Assembly (NCBI GenBank): GCA_947626675.1
Contig: CANQTC010000002.1
Location: 1-64,000 of the forward strand
Direction: 5' to 3'
Length of the DNA stretch: 64,000 nucleotides
Source of the DNA: an uncultured Coprococcus sp.
GTDB taxonomy: Bacteria; Bacillota; Clostridia; Lachnospirales; Lachnospiraceae
Position 1 is the first letter of the stretch, and every line of letters starts with the position of its first letter. The position numbers and the translations under genes were made by a program. This document shows positions 603 to 54,087 of the stretch, in pieces. The notes under the pieces are model-generated. The model was not told where the DNA came from. It saw only the letters and a list, made by a program, of their open reading frames with translations, and did no database searches.

Positions 603-3509
603 CTATTCCTCTATGTATTTCAATTCTCTTTTTTTAAATGAAAGCATCGTTCCCTCTAATATTGTAACAATAGACTGATTTATCACATCGTCCTCTATTC
701 CGCCAGCCTCAACTTCAACCAATTGATCATTTTCTTTATCAATTTTAACATGAATGATTTGATCAGAATCCGCCACAACTGCTAAATTTGGATTATGTGT
801 GACCAATATAATTTGTCTCCTATTTTTAGCCGCCTGAATAAATGGTACAAGAACTTTAGTTACGCTTTGATTATCCAAATTGTCTTCTGGCTGATCGATT
901 ACTAACGGAATATCTCGCAAATCCAAGAGTAAATAAAAAATTAGTAATAATGCTCCTCTTTCTCCAGGCGATAATTTATCCAAAGTCTTGCCATCACTCA
1001 CTAACTCATATTTATTGGTAAGATAACCTAATCCGAATAAATAATTATAAAAATCAAGCATCTTACTTTCCTTAATTTGTGGAATGATACCATCTGGAAA
1101 TTCACTCATTTTTTCAATAATCTTCTTAGGAATATCCAAATACTCTTCAATGCTTTCAATATCTCCTAATTCTTCAATCGTTTTATATAATTGATAATTA
1201 TCATCTTTGAAAATGTTTCTTTTTTGCTTATTTATATAGTCAAATACACTTTGCTGAAATGTTGTATCAATAACTAACCCTGACCTAATACATATGCTAT
1301 AGTCACTTAATAGTTCGCTATTTTCGTTCAAAAAATCATCCACTGGCTTTTTAAACCTGTTATATATCTGTATTATTTTCTTTTTTTCTTTAAGTATATC
1401 TGCTGCTATTTCATCTCGTTTCATATAAAGTGGATTTAAATCTTCCTGTATTCCTCCACTTATATACTTTATTTCGTCTTCTACAACCTTTACTGCTTCC
1501 CTACGTGTTTTCTCAATATCACTCCATTCCTTCAAGCGGTTTAAATATTCATTATATTCTTGTATATGCTTATCTTCTTCTGCAACAATATCATTTTTTT
1601 CTTTTGTATACTTGATGAGCTGGATTTCTATACCACTTTCAGGATTCTTTAGTTTATCCTTCACCTCTGCTATAAGTTGATCTATTTCAGTTTTCTTCGC
1701 ATTTACTGTTTCTTTATTAACTTTTATATGAAAAATTGTATTAACACTCAAATCAAACTCTACTAATTCTTCATTAATATGCTCCATAGACTTTGCAAAA
1801 CGATTCTGTATTTCATCAATTTCTTCCAATATGCTTTGTAACTTACGAACCTTTTCATTCAATGAAAATAATTTCTGATTTTCACTTTCACTTTGATTTG
1901 ACATTTCTTTTATTTTTTCTAAAACTGCGTCATACATTTCCTGCTTTTCTTTTGGTAGTTCAGGCTTTTCAATTTTCTTAGGTTTTATAGACATATGGGC
2001 TTCTAACTGAGTGTTCGCATCTTTTAACAGAGCCTCCTGTTTTATTTTATACGATGATAAAAGTTTTGTTTCTTTATCAATAATCTCCCTATTAACATTT
2101 GTTAAATCATTAATCAAAAATCCTATGTTTTCTTCTGTTGATTTAGTATACTTATCAATCAACTCATCAAAGTCTCTGCAATTTTCTTTGTCCATTTCTG
2201 TCAATCTAGAAAAAATAACATTATTTATTTCATCAGAAAAACGCTTAAATTCAGTATCTGTACAGATTTCTTCAAAATACTGTTGTGGAATACATTGACA
2301 CCGTTCTACATTATTTACATCAGGAATATCCGAAAGATTCTTCTTAGTAGTTTCACCATTATTCTCCCATATTAATGATGCTTCAAAGTTAGATGCCAAC
2401 TTATTTTTTAGGAATTTTCCCTTATTTAAAAAAGCAAATTTTTCGTAATTATGACTGTCTGCTAACAATCCTATTATTTCAGCTATTGCAGATTTCCCAT
2501 TTCCTTTATTTCCAATAATACTTATTAATCCTGGATTCATTGGAATACAGATATTTTGAAACCATTTTCCTTTATTTCCATCATAGTTGTCAGCCCAATT
2601 AATAACTAACTTGTCAATATATTTGGTTGAATTTTTCTTTATACGTTCAATTTGTTCTGGAACTACTCCCAAATACATACGATTATCATAGTCAATCAGT
2701 GCTTGCCTTAATCCCTCAAAACTACAATCTGCCTTAACCCATGTACATCTTTCTTCCATGCTTTCATATTCACTTTTCTCGTGAGAATCCGATGCAACCA
2801 TGCATGGCTTTCCAAACACAGCCTTATAAAATTTAGCATTCTTTGCTTCTTTCTTTTTATGATTTGGCAACTCAACTATGTCTATTTTCTTTTCTATTAT
2901 TTCACTTTTCGTAATATCTAGAGTCTCATAGATTTCTTCTGGTGTAGCTTCTTTCTTTGGAACATGTGTCATTTCATTTTCAATGCTACCATGTTTATCT
3001 CCACCATGAATAATAACAAGACCACCTAATTTATGTGTTAGTTCAACAGCATCATCTAAATTGACAATGGTTGTTAAGAGTCCTCTTCCATAATCGCCAT
3101 TCCCATTAGCTGTAATTTTGCTTTCAGTTAACCCAAGAACCGAACAAAAATTATCATATATATTCTGCCTAGTTGACTTAACATAGGTTTCACCTATCTT
3201 TATTTTCTGAGGAAATACGCAAATCAAATGTACTCCCTTTTTACCCTTATCGGTTTTAATTTCTATTCCAGGAATAAAATTGATCTGATCTTTATATAAA
3301 CCTTTTTCATTTCCCTGAGTTTCGTATATATTCCAAATATCGTCTAATGCATCCACATTAGAATGATCTGTAATTGAAAACATCGAAATATTTTTTTCAA
3401 TTAACTTATCAAAGATTTCCTCAACTGACATTTTAGTCCTAGATTCTTTTGAATATGTGGAATGCATATGTAAATTCCATAATCTCCACTCTGATCCCCT
3501 GTTTATCAC
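603..3509 (-). CDS. PHP-domain + SMC/ABC-like ATPase (TrlF family-like)
   Basis: 968 aa; N-terminal PHP motifs NLHMHSTYSKES, DHSNVDAL, PGIEIKT, ASDSHE; Walker A GNKGNGKSA; LSPGER signature; Walker B VIDQPEDNLD; VTHNPN switch; coiled-coil centre. Confidence 0.85.
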   Translation of the reverse strand: MINRGSEWRLWNLHMHSTYSKESRTKMSVEEIFDKLIEKNISMFSITDHSNVDALDDIWNIYETQGNEKGLYKDQINFIPGIEIKTDKGKKGVHLICVFPQKIKIGETYVKSTRQNIYDNFCSVLGLTESKITANGNGDYGRGLLTTIVNLDDAVELTHKLGGLVIIHGGDKHGSIENEMTHVPKKEATPEEIYETLDITKSEIIEKKIDIVELPNHKKKEAKNAKFYKAVFGKPCMVASDSHEKSEYESMEERCTWVKADCSFEGLRQALIDYDNRMYLGVVPEQIERIKKNSTKYIDKLVINWADNYDGNKGKWFQNICIPMNPGLISIIGNKGNGKSAIAEIIGLLADSHNYEKFAFLNKGKFLKNKLASNFEASLIWENNGETTKKNLSDIPDVNNVERCQCIPQQYFEEICTDTEFKRFSDEINNVIFSRLTEMDKENCRDFDELIDKYTKSTEENIGFLINDLTNVNREIIDKETKLLSSYKIKQEALLKDANTQLEAHMSIKPKKIEKPELPKEKQEMYDAVLEKIKEMSNQSESENQKLFSLNEKVRKLQSILEEIDEIQNRFAKSMEHINEELVEFDLSVNTIFHIKVNKETVNAKKTEIDQLIAEVKDKLKNPESGIEIQLIKYTKEKNDIVAEEDKHIQEYNEYLNRLKEWSDIEKTRREAVKVVEDEIKYISGGIQEDLNPLYMKRDEIAADILKEKKKIIQIYNRFKKPVDDFLNENSELLSDYSICIRSGLVIDTTFQQSVFDYINKQKRNIFKDDNYQLYKTIEELGDIESIEEYLDIPKKIIEKMSEFPDGIIPQIKESKMLDFYNYLFGLGYLTNKYELVSDGKTLDKLSPGERGALLLIFYLLLDLRDIPLVIDQPEDNLDNQSVTKVLVPFIQAAKNRRQIILVTHNPNLAVVADSDQIIHVKIDKENDQLVEVEAGGIEDDVINQSIVTILEGTMLSFKKRELKYIEE

Positions 3510-3539
3510 AATATACCTTCTTTCATCTTTCTATAATAG

Positions 3540-4190
3540 CTATATACAGTTTATTTTCTCTACTAACTTCTCAATTGGCTCACATTCCCTTATCGAATAA
3601 TGATATTTATCAATAATGCCTAACTGTTTTCCATTTTGATAGTCGTTCCTACTTGTTTTTCTTCTAAACGCCCTAGCATATCCATATAATCTATGTAATC
3701 TTTGTAATTCATCCACTTCCTGAAACACTACTATTCCACCTACATCCGAGCATGGTTTGTCAAACTTCCAAACTACATAAATAGGTATTTCTTTCCCATT
3801 CATCCTGTCTATTTCTTTACATTTAAAATAGCTTTGTAATTTGGGCTCATCAACAACTAAAGTCTCTTTTGCATACAAACCTACTCTCTCTTTTGACTTC
3901 ATAAAAGCTTGTCCTTCAAGAAACTTTGCTTCTATTCTACAAACCAATTCTCTGCAACTAGAATCCCTATATACATTTATATCTGGATACTTATCAATTT
4001 CTGTCTTTTTGCATTTATAAATTGTATTATGTTCAACATACTCCATTAATTCTTTTACTAGATCATCTGAATTGAGCAAATCTCTTTCAAATGGATAATC
4101 CAGTTTTGATTTTCCATCACATTTATGACATAATCCACATTTTAATTTCTCATCATCTAATTCCGATAAACTAACTTTACAGCTTAACAT
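3540..4190 (-). CDS. Uncharacterised 216-aa protein; possible PD-(D/E)xK nuclease-like fold, N-terminal CxxC pair
   Basis: CGLCHKC near the N-terminus; PDINVYRDSSCRELVCRIEAK resembles a PD...ExK core; lies between AlwI-like REase and PHP-ATPase genes. Confidence 0.5.
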   Translation of the reverse strand: MLSCKVSLSELDDEKLKCGLCHKCDGKSKLDYPFERDLLNSDDLVKELMEYVEHNTIYKCKKTEIDKYPDINVYRDSSCRELVCRIEAKFLEGQAFMKSKERVGLYAKETLVVDEPKLQSYFKCKEIDRMNGKEIPIYVVWKFDKPCSDVGGIVVFQEVDELQRLHRLYGYARAFRRKTSRNDYQNGKQLGIIDKYHYSIRECEPIEKLVEKINCI

Positions 4191-4199
4191 TTTCCACTC

Positions 4200-5882
4200 C
4201 TATAGCCAATCTAAGGCTTTTTCTTTTATTTTTGCATACCATTCATTTTCATCAGTTGCAGTCTTTGCCTGTTCAAGCGAATAATCAAATATTCTCTTTA
4301 CTTGCTCAGGATTTGGTACATATCCAGCTTTATATGATTGCTCAACCATATTTATAAAAACATCTAATTCTAGTGGAATAATTACAGATTGTCCACCATA
4401 AAATGCAATATTTACCGTATGTAACGCATAAAAATATGCAATACAAGATTCGTTTATTTTCGGAGCAATAAATAAGCAATATGCATCTTTTCCTATTTCT
4501 TTCTTAAGTTTTGCAAGATGACGAGATACAGGCTCTCCTTCCATCTCATATTGTTTCTGACCTAATTGCATTGTAACTTCCACTGCCACCCCGAATTCTC
4601 CATAATCGCAAACAATATCAGGCATATTCCCTGCTGCCGTTGACATTGGCTGTCCCTTATCATCCAATTTAAGATTTGCCTTAATATCTCCACCATCAAG
4701 CATTGTCATAGCTCTCCAAGTATTCCACTCTAACATAAGTGGAGCATCATAAAGAACATTCTTTTTGATATCATCAAATGTGTTCATAACATCTGCATAT
4801 TCCTTGTATTCCTTAAGATCTGCAATTTGCTTTGTTATAATTGCAGTTTTCTTACTTAAGATTGCATCTTCAAGCATATCTTTCAAGTGTTCAGTAGTTT
4901 CAGTAATAAGCACTTCTTTACCCGTAACCTCTGTCACCTGCTTTATCAGACGCTTTCTATCATCCGAATATAGCACTGGAATTGACATATCAAATAGATA
5001 TTTTTTATATTCATCTTCATCATCAACAAATACTGGTTTACGATCAATGCTATTCAAGAAAAATTCAACTTCTCTTTTCTTTTCTGGCATTATGGAAAGT
5101 GAATGACCACGCTGTGATATCTCCACCATTCCTGTTGCCCTCAAATATCTAAAGCAGGCATCTGCATAATCTCTCATATTACTTGCTTTTGTTCTGACGA
5201 ATTTTTCAAGTGAAGCATCTCTTGATTCTCTTGTCTGCGTATTACCTCCGTCGATATCATTTTTATATATCCTTTCGACTTGAGTGCGAAGATATTTGCC
5301 TCGAAACATCTTGTAGCTTCCTTCTGCATATGCTTTCATTCTTCTAAACTGCTTTATTTCAGCAACAACACTATCAAATTTATTATAATGAGTTAGCTGC
5401 ATACCAAATATCATCAACTCATCGAAACTTATTGTTCCTAATTCATAAATTAATCGGAACATTTCGAGATATGGCTTTACTCCAAATAATCCATTAAATT
5501 GTTCAGGTTCTTTATGATATGGCGATGGTAATTGGAATTTCAAAAGCTGTCTTAACAATGTTTCTTCTGTTCGCTTTCCACTAATTAGTTTTTTCCCTGA
5601 ATCTGTTAGTTTTATTGTTGGTTTCAAGTCAACAAATCCAAGTGCTTTGGGCGCTCTTGTTATTCTATCCCTAGCGCTCAAAGCCATATCTTTTGCTGAG
5701 CCCTTACCTTCAAAGTCACTACCGTCTGCCAACTTCTTAATAAATTCTACTTGTGTATCTGTGTTCCATACTTTTCCATCAAAATACTTATCTAGGACTT
5801 CTATTTCTGGAATCATTTTTAACGGGGATCTTGGTGAAGTCGTAAAAAATAATGTTTTACTTTTTAAATATGCCATTTTCAT
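4200..5882 (-). CDS. AlwI-family type II (type IIS-like) restriction endonuclease
   Basis: 560 aa; N-terminal SKTLFFTTSPRSPLKMIPEIEVL...GKVWNTDTQVEFIKKLA and C-terminal LEWNTWRAMTMLDGG...PDIVCDYGEFGVAVEVTMQLGQKQYEMEGEPVSRHLAKLKKE are characteristic; adjacent to a methylase. Confidence 0.85.
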   Translation of the reverse strand: MKMAYLKSKTLFFTTSPRSPLKMIPEIEVLDKYFDGKVWNTDTQVEFIKKLADGSDFEGKGSAKDMALSARDRITRAPKALGFVDLKPTIKLTDSGKKLISGKRTEETLLRQLLKFQLPSPYHKEPEQFNGLFGVKPYLEMFRLIYELGTISFDELMIFGMQLTHYNKFDSVVAEIKQFRRMKAYAEGSYKMFRGKYLRTQVERIYKNDIDGGNTQTRESRDASLEKFVRTKASNMRDYADACFRYLRATGMVEISQRGHSLSIMPEKKREVEFFLNSIDRKPVFVDDEDEYKKYLFDMSIPVLYSDDRKRLIKQVTEVTGKEVLITETTEHLKDMLEDAILSKKTAIITKQIADLKEYKEYADVMNTFDDIKKNVLYDAPLMLEWNTWRAMTMLDGGDIKANLKLDDKGQPMSTAAGNMPDIVCDYGEFGVAVEVTMQLGQKQYEMEGEPVSRHLAKLKKEIGKDAYCLFIAPKINESCIAYFYALHTVNIAFYGGQSVIIPLELDVFINMVEQSYKAGYVPNPEQVKRIFDYSLEQAKTATDENEWYAKIKEKALDWL

Positions 5883-5888
5883 CCTCCC

Positions 5889-6740
5889 TTAGTAATTTGT
5901 CACAATTATATGTTTTGCATCTGCTTTAAACCGATTTCTTATATTTACAGCATATGATTTATCGTATTCTTCAACTATATATTTTCCATATAATTCTTCA
6001 GTTAAAACTGTTTTCCCTATAACCAACAATGCTTTACATGATAAATTAACAAAATCATTCGCCAATCTTCTATGTTCGTCTTCACCAAATCCATTTTTAT
6101 ATGTTTCATTTCCATAATCACTAAATACACAATCATATGGTGGATCTAAAAATATAAAATCATCATTTCTTGCCATATCGAAAATTTCTGAATAATCACG
6201 ATTATATATCTCTGTTCTCTTCAACAATTGATAATGCTTATCTGTGATTAATTTCGTATTAAAATTTTTGTATCTTCCAAATGGCACATTATATTCTCCA
6301 CTTGCATTATATCTGATCATTCCTGAATACGCTGTCTTGTTAATAAAATAGTATATAACTGCATCTAAATATTCACATTCTATTTTATGATTAAACATAT
6401 TTCTCAGATTATAATACAATGCTTCATTTTTATTTTCCACTCTAACATCTGGGGTTTTCTTTTTTAATTCTTCATACTCTTTTTGATTTTTTTCATATAT
6501 TTTTTGAAGCTCATCTAATTGCTTCCTTGCAACTGGATATTCCTCTTTCATTTGCTGATAAAAGGAATATAACTTTGTGTTAACATCATTTATTATTGCA
6601 TTTTGGGGTTCTAAATAAAAATATAGTGCCCCGCCCCCAAAAAATGGTTCGATATATCTGTTATACTCCGATGGCATATTATTAATAAAATGTGATATTT
6701 CTTTCGATTTACCACCTCTATATTTAATCATTGAATTCAT
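5889..6740 (-). CDS. D12 class N6-adenine DNA methyltransferase (Dam-like)
   Basis: MIKYRGGKSKEI, EPFFGGGALYF, FIFLDPPYDCVF motifs. Confidence 0.9.
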   Translation of the reverse strand: MNSMIKYRGGKSKEISHFINNMPSEYNRYIEPFFGGGALYFYLEPQNAIINDVNTKLYSFYQQMKEEYPVARKQLDELQKIYEKNQKEYEELKKKTPDVRVENKNEALYYNLRNMFNHKIECEYLDAVIYYFINKTAYSGMIRYNASGEYNVPFGRYKNFNTKLITDKHYQLLKRTEIYNRDYSEIFDMARNDDFIFLDPPYDCVFSDYGNETYKNGFGEDEHRRLANDFVNLSCKALLVIGKTVLTEELYGKYIVEEYDKSYAVNIRNRFKADAKHIIVTNY

Positions 6741-6884: not shown

Positions 6885-8397
6885 CTATCTCCCCTCATAC
6901 GCTTCCCATAATCTCTTCTGTTCCGCACTTATCCTCAGTATCTCCTGCAAATCCCTCGCCATAGCTTTGACATTCGCATCCATCTGCTCTACAGTACCTG
7001 TACGATTACAGGCTTTAATTTCATGCTGTACTTCTTCTTTTGAATACATCTCCTTCGTTTCCACATTCATATATCCAAGTGATGTATAGCTATATCCATC
7101 CCTTGTATCTCCGAATACCGGAGCAACTTCCCATTTGGAAGTTTTCCACCTCATAAGCCTTGGGAACCAACACAATCCTTCTTTTATCAGTTCTTTGAAT
7201 GCCTCTAGCAGTTTTCCAATTTCATACAAGATCCCACGAAATGAATTTCCGGCATCAATTGTTTTATCCGCTTCCACCTGATTAGCATATTCTTCAATGG
7301 TAGGTGCAAATAATCTGAATGATGATACAAAAGCTTTGATTCTATCAAGCAATACCACTGCTTTTTTTGCCTCATCTGTAGTATATTCAATCTCCTGATT
7401 TACAGATTGAAGTTCTAACCTTTTTCCTTCCAGCTCATTTGATATACGCTGCGATTCTCTTTTATCCATATCCGACAATGCCTTCTCAATCCTCCTCTTA
7501 TTCTCAAGATATGAAATCTCTGATTCCAGTTTTTCCTTTTTATCTGTATATTCTCGTTCCAGACACTTTTCTTTCTCGACTATTTCATCCCTTTTCTCAT
7601 TAAATTCTTTATTCAGTTTCCCATCTAGAATGCTGTATGCCATTTTTGAACTAAGTAGTTCCATTTCTGCATCATATACTTGCTCGTGCAACTCTTCTAA
7701 ATGCTCCGTTTCTTTTTCTACTTTGTATTCTGCCACTGATAAATCATAATTTCTTCCAAGACTTTTTTCTGATAAATCTTCATGTGTATGATATCTGAAG
7801 CACATCCCAGCTTCCTCTCTTAATTTATCCTGTAAAATTACTGAAAGCGTTTCCGGTGTAAATACATTTCTTTTCAAAACCTTCTTCCTAAGTCCTCTCT
7901 TAGCACCTTCCCATACTGGTACTCCTACCACATGAACATGTGGACTTGCTTCATCAAAATGAATTACTGCATTTGCAATTTTAAATTCTGGCAACAGTTC
8001 CTCCAGCTTTTTAATCAGAAAACTATACACATAATACATTTTGTCCTTAACATCATCATGTTCATTCCAAAAATCCTTATCTCCACATTGAAATATTATC
8101 TCAACAGCCATATCCTGTTCCAGATTTGCCACATGTTCAAAATAATCATCAATCTTTCGTTCTGCTCTCTTTTGTTTTTCATTGTATTCTTTTACAACTT
8201 CATCAAATTCCTGATGATAAACATTCTTCACATCCTGAAGCAAATCATCTGTTCCTCGCAAAACTATAATATTATCTTTGCTATAATCTTCTGATTTGTA
8301 CTTTCTTAAATTGTGTTTTGCCACTCCAGGCAATTTACTCTTACTTGTGATAGCACTTTTCTTGTTGCTAATGTGTGCTGTATAAGACGTATTCCCC
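6885..8397 (-). CDS. MobV-family relaxase / plasmid recombination protein
   Basis: MGNTSYTAHISNKK..., NAVIHFDEASPHVHVVGVPV relaxase motif, long C-terminal coiled coil; start taken at the second Met of the ORF (approximate). Confidence 0.85.
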
Positions 8398-8433
8398 ATA
8401 AGCAAATCTCCTCTCTTATCTGTAAAAAATTTT

Positions 8434-8637: not shown

Positions 8638-9660
8638 TTAAACTCTTTCATCTGGCATAATCCATGTCCAAAAACTTGTTCCATTATTTAACTTACTTTT
8701 TCCTGAAGTAATTCCCAATTTCTTCTTAGCAGATAAAAGAGTATTTCTTTTAATTCCCCTTTTCGCTGCTTCCTGTAAAATATCATTAGATGCAATCTCC
8801 TTCGATAACCCGAAGAACTCTTTAATAAAGTTTTCCGCAATATCCAGTTTCTTTTTGCCTCGTCCTTCATTCCCCATCAGTAATTCATCAATGGTAATGT
8901 CATATGGACCGATACAAATCATTCCCCTATCTTCCGTCATTTCAAATCCAATGGCATCTCCTGCCGGTGCAAGAGAAGATTTGTCATGTGTCATAATTCT
9001 AATATTAGGTTTATCTCGAAGTCTTGCTACCAGTAACACACTTCTTGCTGTTGCCTGAATATCAATGGAACCTAAGCCTCTATAAGTTGATTTGCTCCCA
9101 GCAGCCTTATTCATATGACCGATAAGAATAACTGCGCAATTGTATTTTTCTGCAATCATTCCCAGATGTTTTAACACCGGTCTTATTTCATTTGCTCTGT
9201 GCATGTCAACCTTAGCTCCGATATAAGCCTGTATTGTATCAAGAATAATCAATTTTGCTCCTGTTTCAACGATTGCTTTCTCAAGCCGGTCATCTGTCAT
9301 ACATAACTCTTTTTCCGTTTCATCAATGACACGTATCATGGAACAGTCCGCCCCGGCCTTTTCCAATCTTGGCTTTATAGTATCATCAATACCATCTTCT
9401 GCTGTCTGATAAATAATATGAATTGGCTCATATGCTTTATCATCATCACAGGGAAGTGGCAAGCCCTTGCTAAGGGCTGCCGCCAACATCAATACAAGTG
9501 TTGTCTTTCCTTCTCCTGGATCTCCTTCAATTATGGTTATCTTTCCATAAGGTATATATGGATACCATAACCACTCCACTTCTTTTGAAACCACATCCTC
9601 CATATGGATAAGCTTCAATTCTACATTCTGCTGTTCATTCATAAACTTCCTCCTTGTCAA
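8638..9660 (-). CDS. RepA-like AAA ATPase / replicative helicase-type protein
   Basis: Walker A EGDPGEGKTTLVLMLA, LIILDTIQAYIG, VILIGHMNKAAGSKSTYRGLGSIDIQATARSVLLV. Confidence 0.75.
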   Translation of the reverse strand: MTRRKFMNEQQNVELKLIHMEDVVSKEVEWLWYPYIPYGKITIIEGDPGEGKTTLVLMLAAALSKGLPLPCDDDKAYEPIHIIYQTAEDGIDDTIKPRLEKAGADCSMIRVIDETEKELCMTDDRLEKAIVETGAKLIILDTIQAYIGAKVDMHRANEIRPVLKHLGMIAEKYNCAVILIGHMNKAAGSKSTYRGLGSIDIQATARSVLLVARLRDKPNIRIMTHDKSSLAPAGDAIGFEMTEDRGMICIGPYDITIDELLMGNEGRGKKKLDIAENFIKEFFGLSKEIASNDILQEAAKRGIKRNTLLSAKKKLGITSGKSKLNNGTSFWTWIMPDERV

Positions 9661-9902
9661 ACTGCTTCTTCATTAAAATAACCTGTTTCTTCCCAAACCC
9701 GTTTATCCGGGCAATAATAGCTATATTCATTTGAATTTCCTACTTTTATTGCCGTTCCAAATTTGAGTATTCCTTGTTGTAATCCCAGCCTTACATACTG
9801 TGCATCCTTCCCTATTGCGCTTGCAATTTCCTTTATCGGTACATTTCTTCCTGTAAAGGCTGGTAAATCAACCTTATAAAGAACTTCTGGCATATTTACC
9901 AC
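9657..9902 (-). CDS. Small DNA-binding / excisionase-like protein
   Basis: 81 aa; IKEIASAIGKDAQYVRLGLQQGILKFGTA resembles excisionase-type HTH; overlaps the ATPase start. Confidence 0.55.
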   Translation of the reverse strand: MVNMPEVLYKVDLPAFTGRNVPIKEIASAIGKDAQYVRLGLQQGILKFGTAIKVGNSNEYSYYCPDKRVWEETGYFNEEAV

Positions 9903-9987: not shown

Positions 9988-10016
9988 TTGACTAATAGAT
10001 ATTAGTATGTTATATT
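9988..10016 (+). promoter_or_regulatory. Sigma-A-type promoter with palindromic operator for the XRE gene
   Basis: TTGACT (9988-9993), 17-nt spacer, TATATT (10011-10016); spacer contains CTAATA-GA-TATTAG (9992-10005). Confidence 0.7.
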
Positions 10017-10039
10017 TGCAATTACAGGAGGTTGGTGCG

Positions 10040-10471
10040 ATGAATACAGGTAAAAAGATTAAGTTAATTCGAACGTTTCGTGGATTAACTCAAAAAGAAC
10101 TTGGAGAGGCTTGCGGAATACATGAAGTTGCAATCCGCAAATATGAACTTGGAAAGAATCTTCCAAAATCGGAACAGCTTAGAAAAATCGCAGAAGCACT
10201 AAATGTTAATGTAAATTCATTGGTAGAATTTGATATTGAAGCTGATGGAGATGTATTACCATTACTTTTTGCAATTGACGAAGTGTTTGATGTGTCTATT
10301 AAAGACATTGATGGAGAACCCGGAATATTCTTTTCCAACAAAAGTCTCATACAATTTCTAAAAGACTGGCAGGCAATGAAGGAATTACTTGCTTCTGGTA
10401 GCCAGACTCAAGACAATTATGAGATTTGGAAAACAATTCGTCCAAATGTAACAAAAGTAACCCACGAATAA
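10040..10471 (+). CDS. XRE-family helix-turn-helix regulator
   Basis: IKLIRTFRGLTQKELGEACGIHEVAIRKYELGKNLPKSEQLRKIAEAL; AGGAGG 12 nt upstream of ATG 10040. Confidence 0.85.
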   Translation: MNTGKKIKLIRTFRGLTQKELGEACGIHEVAIRKYELGKNLPKSEQLRKIAEALNVNVNSLVEFDIEADGDVLPLLFAIDEVFDVSIKDIDGEPGIFFSNKSLIQFLKDWQAMKELLASGSQTQDNYEIWKTIRPNVTKVTHE

Positions 10472-10528
10472 TAATCATTTTACACCTTTGCTATCAGCTT
10501 TCTAGTAAATAGCGAAAGGATGGTGCTT

Positions 10529-11583
10529 ATGAAGTTACCCAACGGATACGGAAGTGTTGTAAAACTTTCCGGCAAAAGAAGAAGACCTTATCAAGTGCGA
10601 AAAACGATAGGCTGGCACTATGATAAGGAAAAAGACAAACAGGTTCAGGATATGATTACGATTGGATATGCAGCTACAAAGGCAGAAGCCTTGCAGATAC
10701 TTGCGGAATACAATAATAATCCATTTGACACCAAGACTGCTAAGATGACCTTTTCAGATGTATATGAAGAATGGTCAAAGCGTAAGTTTCCAACTATTTC
10801 TGAATCTAATGTAAAAGGATACTCTGCTTCATATAAAGCGTGTGAATCCCTTTACAACAAAGTATTCAAGGATATTAAGCTAGTTGATTTACAGACTGTC
10901 ATTGATACGTGTGGCAAGAATTTCCCCACACTAAAGAAAATCAAAGGGTTATTCAATCAGCTATATGACTATGCCTTGAAGAATGATATTTGCAACAAAG
11001 ACTATTCCAGCTACGTGGATGTCGCTCAGTATAAGGATCGTAATCCTAACAAATATGACAGAAACAAATTTGAAAAAAACGAAATTGATATGATATGGGA
11101 GCAAAAGGAAGATAAATATTATCAGATTGTATTAATGCTTCTATACAGTGGAGTTCGAGTTTCAGAATTGCTGGATTTGAAAAAAGAAAATGTTCATCTG
11201 GAAGAACAGTATTTTGATGTTATCTGTAGTAAAATAGAAAATGGTATTCGAAAGGTTCCCATAACAGATAAGCTTCTGCCATACTACAAAAACTGGTATG
11301 AATCCTGTCCGGAATGTGAATATCTACTTCACACAGAGGAAGGAAATCATTTCCTATACCGAAACTACTACGATAGCTATTTTAAACCTTTAATGGAACA
11401 GTTAAATATTAATCGTACGCCCATTGTTGTAGGCATACCTGCATTTCAATGTTAGCGGAAGCCGGTGTGAATCAGACGATAATCAAAAAGATTGTAGGAC
11501 ACTCCGGTGCTATGACTTTGACCGAAAAAGTATATACCCACTTTAATGTTAAGGATCTTATAGATGAGATTAATAAGATTTAA
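10529..11583 (+). pseudogene. Tyrosine-type site-specific integrase, frameshifted near the C-terminal catalytic box
   Basis: Integrase N-terminus and core (LLYSGVRVSELLDLKKENV) in frame to 11455; RHTCISMLAEAGVNQTIIKKIVGHSGAMTLTEKVYTHFNVKDLIDEINKI* continues in another frame to 11583; one missing C at CCC 11420-11422 would restore H-x-C-R-H-T. Confidence 0.85.
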
Positions 11584-11592
11584 ATTTAAGAA

Positions 11593-11766: not shown

Positions 11767-12165
11767 TTATCTCTTTGAGAACTGAGGAGCTCTTCTCGCA
11801 GCCTTTAAGCCGTACTTCTTTCTCTCCTTCATTCTTGGGTCTCTTGTAAGGTATCCTGCCTTCTTGAGGATTGGTCTGTACTGCTCTGAGTCAACCTCAA
11901 GTAATGCTCTTGAAATACCATGTCTGATAGCACCAGCCTGACCTGTGAAGCCACCGCCCTTTACATTAACCTTTACGTCATATTTACCTTCTGTGCCTGT
12001 AGCAACAAGAGGCTGTTTCACGATAACCTTTAATGTATCAAGACCGAAATACTCTTCCATGTCTTTCTTGTTTATTGTAATCTTACCAGTACCAGGAGCA
12101 ATATAAACTCTGGCGATACTGCTTTTTCTTCTTCCTGTTCCATAGAACTTTGTTGTCTTAGCCAT
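11767..12165 (-). CDS. rpsI: 30S ribosomal protein S9
   Basis: [17 protein letters not shown]...RRAPQFSKR*. Confidence 0.97.
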
Positions 12166-44601: not shown

Positions 44602-53994
<9,393 letters not shown>

Positions 53995-54087
53995 AGCGTA
54001 TATACCTCCCATGTTAATATTTTTTTATAAGTATTTTTATTTTATAAGATACGAATTTAACCATTCGTCATTTTATACAGTTATCTA

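Follow-up and report, generated by a model that had tools for sequence, protein, structure and literature searches.

The DNA stretch analyzed here, referred to as the window, comprises 64,000 nt from an uncultured Coprococcus sp. (contig CANQTC010000002.1, positions 1 to 64,000). Near its beginning lies a putative defence operon of four intact open reading frames (ORFs), all on the minus strand. The ORF coordinates confirmed the previously noticed intergenic gaps of 6, 9 and 30 nt, and the operon has the order Dam-family methyltransferase, AlwI-family endonuclease, gene for a protein of 216 amino acids (aa), TrlF:

5889..6740, minus strand: Dam-family D12 N6-adenine methyltransferase, 283 aa (TIGR00571, PF02086; DPPY motif; aligned to DpnM and E. 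coli Dam)
4200..5882, minus strand: AlwI-family type IIS restriction endonuclease, 560 aa (PF09491; alignment to the BspD6I large subunit)
3540..4190, minus strand: 216-aa PD-(D/E)xK nuclease-like protein with an N-terminal Cys cluster (motif in five homologs; structure model)
603..3509, minus strand: TrlF-family protein, 968 aa, with an N-terminal PHP domain and an SMC/RecF-like ABC ATPase (NF045780)

A scan of the locus for promoters and terminators yielded no signal above shuffled DNA. In the original prediction the four genes had been viewed as one composite system. The analyses described below led to a different view, for which the probabilities are about evenly balanced: the operon may consist of a type II restriction-modification (R-M) system and two accessory nuclease modules, which together form swappable cargo behind a relaxase gene. 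Judged from the encoded proteins, the function of the locus is very probably defence.

The first two genes were assigned with high scores. The methyltransferase reached 188.5 bits with the dam model TIGR00571 (cut-off 114.85) and 129.6 bits with PF02086. It carries the DPPY motif (FLDPPYD) and could be aligned with DpnM (2dpm) and E. coli Dam (2g1p). Its residues R143, P153 and Y157 align with R124, P134 and Y138 of E. coli Dam, residues that have a role in GATC contact, and GATC is probably also the target of the window enzyme. The endonuclease reached 186.8 bits with PF09491 (RE_AlwI; cut-off 23.1). Its residues 10-509 match the large subunit of BspD6I, including the conserved residues E385, D422 and E435, and its C-terminal domain matches the BspD6I small subunit. 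The AlwI site GGATC would be protected on both strands by a GATC methyltransferase (PMC4081073). The known AlwI-type type IIS R-M systems (AlwI with the site GGATC; BspD6I, MlyI and PleI with GAGTC) have the endonuclease family, the adjacent adenine methyltransferase and the catalytic residues in common with the window. The AlwI system has been described with two fused methyltransferases (PMC4081073), whereas the window operon contains a single Dam-like methyltransferase and two additional nuclease-like genes after the pair.

An AlwI-family gene was present in 21 of the 344 genomes of the host's order. A D12-type methyltransferase adjoined it in all 18 other neighbourhoods that were read (the window left out), in agreement with the earlier proposal that the two genes form an R-M pair. 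In contrast, neither the 216-aa gene nor TrlF was found within about five genes of the pair at any of these 18 loci. The four closest pairs (L099, L100, L102, L103) are free-standing, and one of the AlwI-bearing genomes (G365) has TrlF too, but on a separate contig. Because all other loci are paired and none has the extra genes, the AlwI/D12 pair is complete without them. The proposal of one composite four-gene system did not survive this co-occurrence check. The compact operon with its narrow gaps and intact ORFs would fit a system in which all four genes are required jointly for defence or element maintenance. However, such a joint requirement is highly improbable in view of the 18 pairs without either extra gene, and both extra genes were also found without AlwI.

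The 216-aa protein had no match to a Pfam family, an NCBIfam family or a PDB sequence. Homologs are rare: they were found in 3 of 298 genomes of the host's family, the host included, and at four loci in the genome collection searched, and no further homologs were detected in IMG/VR, plasmids and phages. Five family sequences have in common a CxxCx2-3C cluster, the motif E-x-D-xx-PD-I ... E-x-K and a C-terminal NG...YH[FY]S; E64-x-D66, P69-D70-I71 and E87-x-K89 are invariant in all five. An AlphaFold model had a mean pLDDT (predicted local distance difference test) of 76.5, with residues 19-39 being unreliable. The top fold matches in the PDB, with modest scores, were Hjc resolvases (E 0.005, prob 1.00), and the model also resembles small phage nucleases. 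In addition, one homolog weakly matches PHROG 5702, a Holliday junction resolvase (E 0.005). Because the motif is conserved and the predicted fold matches, the protein was assigned to the PD-(D/E)xK nucleases, as had been guessed before; by motif and predicted fold it is a member of this group. The Hjc-type Holliday junction resolvases are the closest solved folds to the model. The 216-aa protein differs from them in being longer, in having the Cys cluster and an additional C-terminal part, and in that its sequence does not significantly match any protein of solved structure. A weak match to PglX of PADLOC (E 0.002, one member) was judged to be due to chance or a shared fold.

The BspD6I endonuclease consists of a large subunit and a small subunit partner of 604 and 186 aa (PMC4081073). 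By analogy, the AlwI-type protein could be the large subunit of a heterodimeric type IIS enzyme in which the 216-aa protein acts as the small, catalytic partner, since the size is similar, the small gene likewise follows directly downstream and the PD-(D/E)xK motif is present. However, the 216-aa protein did not match any BspD6I chain; it is the C-terminal domain of the AlwI-type protein that matches the small subunit instead. Moreover, the closest AlwI pairs lack the 216-aa gene, and the 216-aa family occurs without AlwI. The idea, to which we assign a very low probability, was rejected on the basis of sequence and of distribution (0 of 18 AlwI loci).

The gene neighbourhoods link the 216-aa family to adenine methylation. 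In Clostridium sp. MCC353 (L002) a homolog with 71% identity follows a methyltransferase that is 79.5% identical to that of the window, and an AlwI gene is missing. The window methyltransferase is thus closer to this 216-linked enzyme than to the AlwI-linked methyltransferases, with which its identity is about 65%. In MCC353 the methyltransferase and the 216-aa gene are separated by a 232-nt array of GCGCAACGCAAAATCT-like short repeats (L004 10640-10871). That an AlwI gene had been lost from this gap was considered and rejected, because the gap is a repeat array and does not contain an endonuclease remnant. A further homolog (54%, L008) follows a different adenine methyltransferase. We infer that the 216-aa protein may rely on the mark set by the window methyltransferase.

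The fourth gene product scored 547 bits with the TrlF model NF045780 (cut-off 350), so that its description as a TrlF-like PHP-ATPase could be upheld. The PHP residues H14, H16, E83 and D241 are invariant in 22 homologs, as are G338-K339-S340 (Walker A), S847-x-G849 (signature), D872-Q-P-E875 (Walker B) and H905 of the ATPase. Including the window's genome, proteins above the family cut-off are encoded in 5 of 194 relatives and, across the phylum, in 16 of 398 genomes; TrlF was not found in phage records. Altogether 22 TrlF loci of Bacillota were read, two of which (L104, L105) had been recruited by similarity to the window protein. In 11 of them, the window included, TrlF lies in a methylation-based defence operon, namely bacteriophage exclusion (BREX) in five cases, type I R-M in three, a type IIG-like system in one, a DUF6079/methylase/helicase operon in one, and the type II system of the window. 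The other loci have the following organization:

L153: BrxC-PglX-TrlF-PglZ-BrxL
L154 and L157: BrxB-BrxC-PglX-TrlF-TrlG-PglZ-BrxL
L159: PglX-TrlF-PglZ-BrxL
L156: PglX-PglZ-BrxL-TrlF
L149: HsdM-TrlF-HsdS
L163: split TrlF with HsdS and HsdR
L038: HsdR-HsdM-HsdS-TrlF
L039: fused methylase-specificity protein (type IIG-like) overlapping TrlF
L152: DUF6079-methylase-TrlF-helicase
L150, L155 and L158: TrlF and a TrlG-like gene only
L036: TrlF and an Mrr-nSTAND3 gene, with DUF4007 nearby
L151: TrlF and a TIR protein
L037, L104, L105 and L160-L162: TrlF without an evident partner gene

The labels BrxB and TrlG as well as BrxC and BrxL of L154 and L157 were read from the sequences; the latter BrxC and BrxL were also backed by a panel search. 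In several lineages TrlF is nested among core genes, flanked by PglX and PglZ or by HsdM and HsdS, and overlaps of 4 to 16 nt occur. Relatives of a panel of operon core proteins were present in 12 of 21 TrlF stretches versus 2 of 79 control stretches, a comparison that is biased upward because the panel proteins came from TrlF loci. The position of TrlF amid the core genes carries more weight. Around the window operon, none of the ORFs encodes the core proteins PglZ, PglX and BrxC of BREX or HsdM, HsdS and HsdR of type I R-M.

PrrC and RloC are auxiliary effectors of methylation-based operons (BREX or type I R-M). The window operon resembles such operons in that genes for back-up nucleases are located within a methylation-based operon, and it differs from them in its core, which is a type II pair instead of BREX or type I genes. 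BREX operons have been surveyed and hold auxiliary and back-up nucleases; PHP and TrlF are absent from the main text of that survey (PMC12839542). The only literature found that names the TrlF family concerns the temperature-restricting locus trlR-trlF-trlG of Photorhabdus (PMC7554251). The window TrlF belongs to the same family and has the invariant motifs, but it is not accompanied by a trlG- or trlR-like gene and follows a type II R-M system instead. The trlR-trlF-trlG context is a definition of the Photorhabdus locus, and not of the TrlF protein family. As at that locus, a TrlG-like gene (about 390 aa) directly follows TrlF in L154, L155, L157, L158 and L150. The anti-phage protein Ppl, described as a single-gene 3'-5' exonuclease, has a PHP and NTPase layout (PMC12904381). 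TrlF and Ppl have the PHP and ATPase layout in common and are related in the C-terminal ATPase part. However, TrlF is not a member of the Ppl family, as it scored only 112 bits with the model NF042955 (cut-off 1000), which indicates a distant similarity.

The backbone of a mobilizable element is located upstream of the operon, and the presence of such an element, as originally predicted, is supported by the following genes:

6885..8405, minus strand: MobV/Pre-type relaxase (PF01076, 56.8 bits)
8638-9660, minus strand: AAA_25 ATPase (PF13481, 101 bits)
9657-9902, minus strand: small xis-like protein ("xis-like" from size and position alone)
10007-10471, plus strand: helix-turn-helix (HTH) regulator (PF01381)
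10520-11455, plus strand: tyrosine integrase (PF00589; frame broken before the RHTC motif)
11767..12165, minus strand: rpsI, ribosomal protein S9, beside the integration site (translation)

The relaxase score is above the cut-off of PF01076 and below that of NF041497 (32 of 100 bits), and a relaxase with 86% identity was found in G122. The AAA_25 ATPase and the xis-like protein are both kept beside the relaxase in sister elements. The break of the integrase frame was read from the sequence (window 10520-11590); owing to this frameshift the element copy may no longer be mobile, provided that the assembly is correct. At the sister locus L091 the similarity to the window stops at position 11778. 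On the left side of the element the contig starts at window base 1, and a search for repeats marking both element ends did not reveal any. By gene content, the four genes are predicted cargo of a MobV-type mobilizable element next to rpsI. Sister elements hold differing R-M-type genes right after the relaxase, which defines a cargo slot with the following contents (labels mostly read from translations):

L190 and L195: methyltransferases
L091: divergent AlwI pair
L192: NO VEIN-like protein
L193: HsdR-like protein
L198: Vsr and C5 methyltransferase

The L091 copy looks like a decayed element with an internal deletion. Elsewhere in the window, a 3136-aa open reading frame is located at 44602-54012.

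The frequency of GATC was determined for the host and the element. The host chromosome contains 21 GATC sites versus 482 expected in 120 kb (window 11770-64000 and contigs L020-L025), and the chromosomal part of the window alone 6 versus 174. In the mobile element 18 sites were found versus 41 expected. The depletion is common to one congener (G571, ratio 0.15) and not to three others. This distribution would be compatible with a role in element maintenance, in which the main task of the Dam-like methyltransferase would be to protect the element from a putative GATC cutter present in the host lineage, and loss of the element would be punished by the nucleases: the chromosome is nearly devoid of GATC, while the element keeps a considerable fraction of its sites. 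However, strong GATC depletion was seen in other Clostridia too, and this explanation appears improbable. A connection between GATC depletion and TrlF was also considered. At first 4 of 7 TrlF genomes versus 1 of 29 controls were depleted, but strong depletion was then absent from all of 15 additional TrlF genomes, and the connection was rejected.

We infer the following scheme, including the methylation site, all enzymatic activities, the sharing of the methyltransferase and the functional contact between the parts, from the gene identities, the conserved motifs of the active sites, the fold predicted for the 216-aa protein and the repeated occurrence of TrlF in modification-based operons. 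The Dam-like enzyme would methylate adenine, probably in GATC, and thereby mark self DNA. Incoming DNA that lacks this mark would be cleaved by the AlwI-type enzyme, whose asymmetric site would include the methylated one or overlap with it, a GGATC-like site being the likeliest. The 216-aa protein would be a second nuclease that uses the same methyltransferase for the discrimination of self and non-self. TrlF would serve as a back-up effector, the SMC/RecF-like ATPase of which may sense DNA ends or some other indication of ongoing restriction or of its defeat. This sensing would license the PHP domain to degrade nucleic acid in a Ppl-like manner; if TrlF works like Ppl, the trigger would be ends made by restriction or a phage attacking the cell.

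Several observations weigh against such an accessory role. The four-gene order was found at the window locus only. TrlF and the 216-aa family each occur alone, the latter in L005 and L010, two more distant genomes. Among 12 plasmid loci with TrlF, 11 do not have an adjacent R-M system and one is located beside a type I R-M system. The weak match to the Ppl model and the biased panel comparison have to be added to these points. In addition, a cargo slot with varied R-M-type genes would make a chance assembly easy. The element might thus simply have accumulated an AlwI/Dam pair, a stand-alone TrlF and a stand-alone nuclease in one slot, which may be co-transcribed and act independently. The free-standing AlwI pairs at all 18 other loci, the absence of an adjacent R-M system from most plasmid and about half of the Bacillota TrlF loci, the solitary 216-aa genes and the other R-M-type cargo at the same position in sister elements argue for this possibility. 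In contrast, chance neighbourhood is no explanation for the nesting of TrlF among BREX and type I core genes in several lineages, and the methyltransferase and the 216-aa gene have remained together in MCC353. Since the plasmid copies mostly lack an R-M neighbour, TrlF seems to be able to act alone, yet it has repeatedly been recruited by modification systems. An accumulation of independent cargo is a serious alternative, albeit one that falls somewhat short of an even chance, and the interpretation as accessory modules is only moderately ahead of it.

The original prediction of an extra effector layer coupled to modification is thus supported in a more general form, i.e., for TrlF in half of the Bacillota loci read and for the 216-aa gene, which lies beside a methyltransferase in two other lineages, but not for the exact four-gene set, which has so far been found at one locus. 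It is tempting, though rather speculative, to extend the interpretation: TrlF-type PHP-ATPases might be a general and little-noticed back-up effector of BREX, type I, type IIG-like and type II R-M systems, and in the window one Dam-like methyltransferase might license the AlwI-type, the new PD-(D/E)xK and the TrlF nucleases in tiers, with phages that defeat restriction triggering the next tier.

If only independent cargo is present, the locus documents a mobilizable element that exchanges R-M-type cargo behind its relaxase gene. If, in contrast, the two genes are accessory modules, one nuclease-ATPase family would have been added to several unrelated types of methylation-based defence, and the question would arise whether TrlF responds to restriction, i.e., to DNA ends, or to the inhibition of restriction by phages. 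The 216-aa family would then be a new nuclease linked to adenine methylation.

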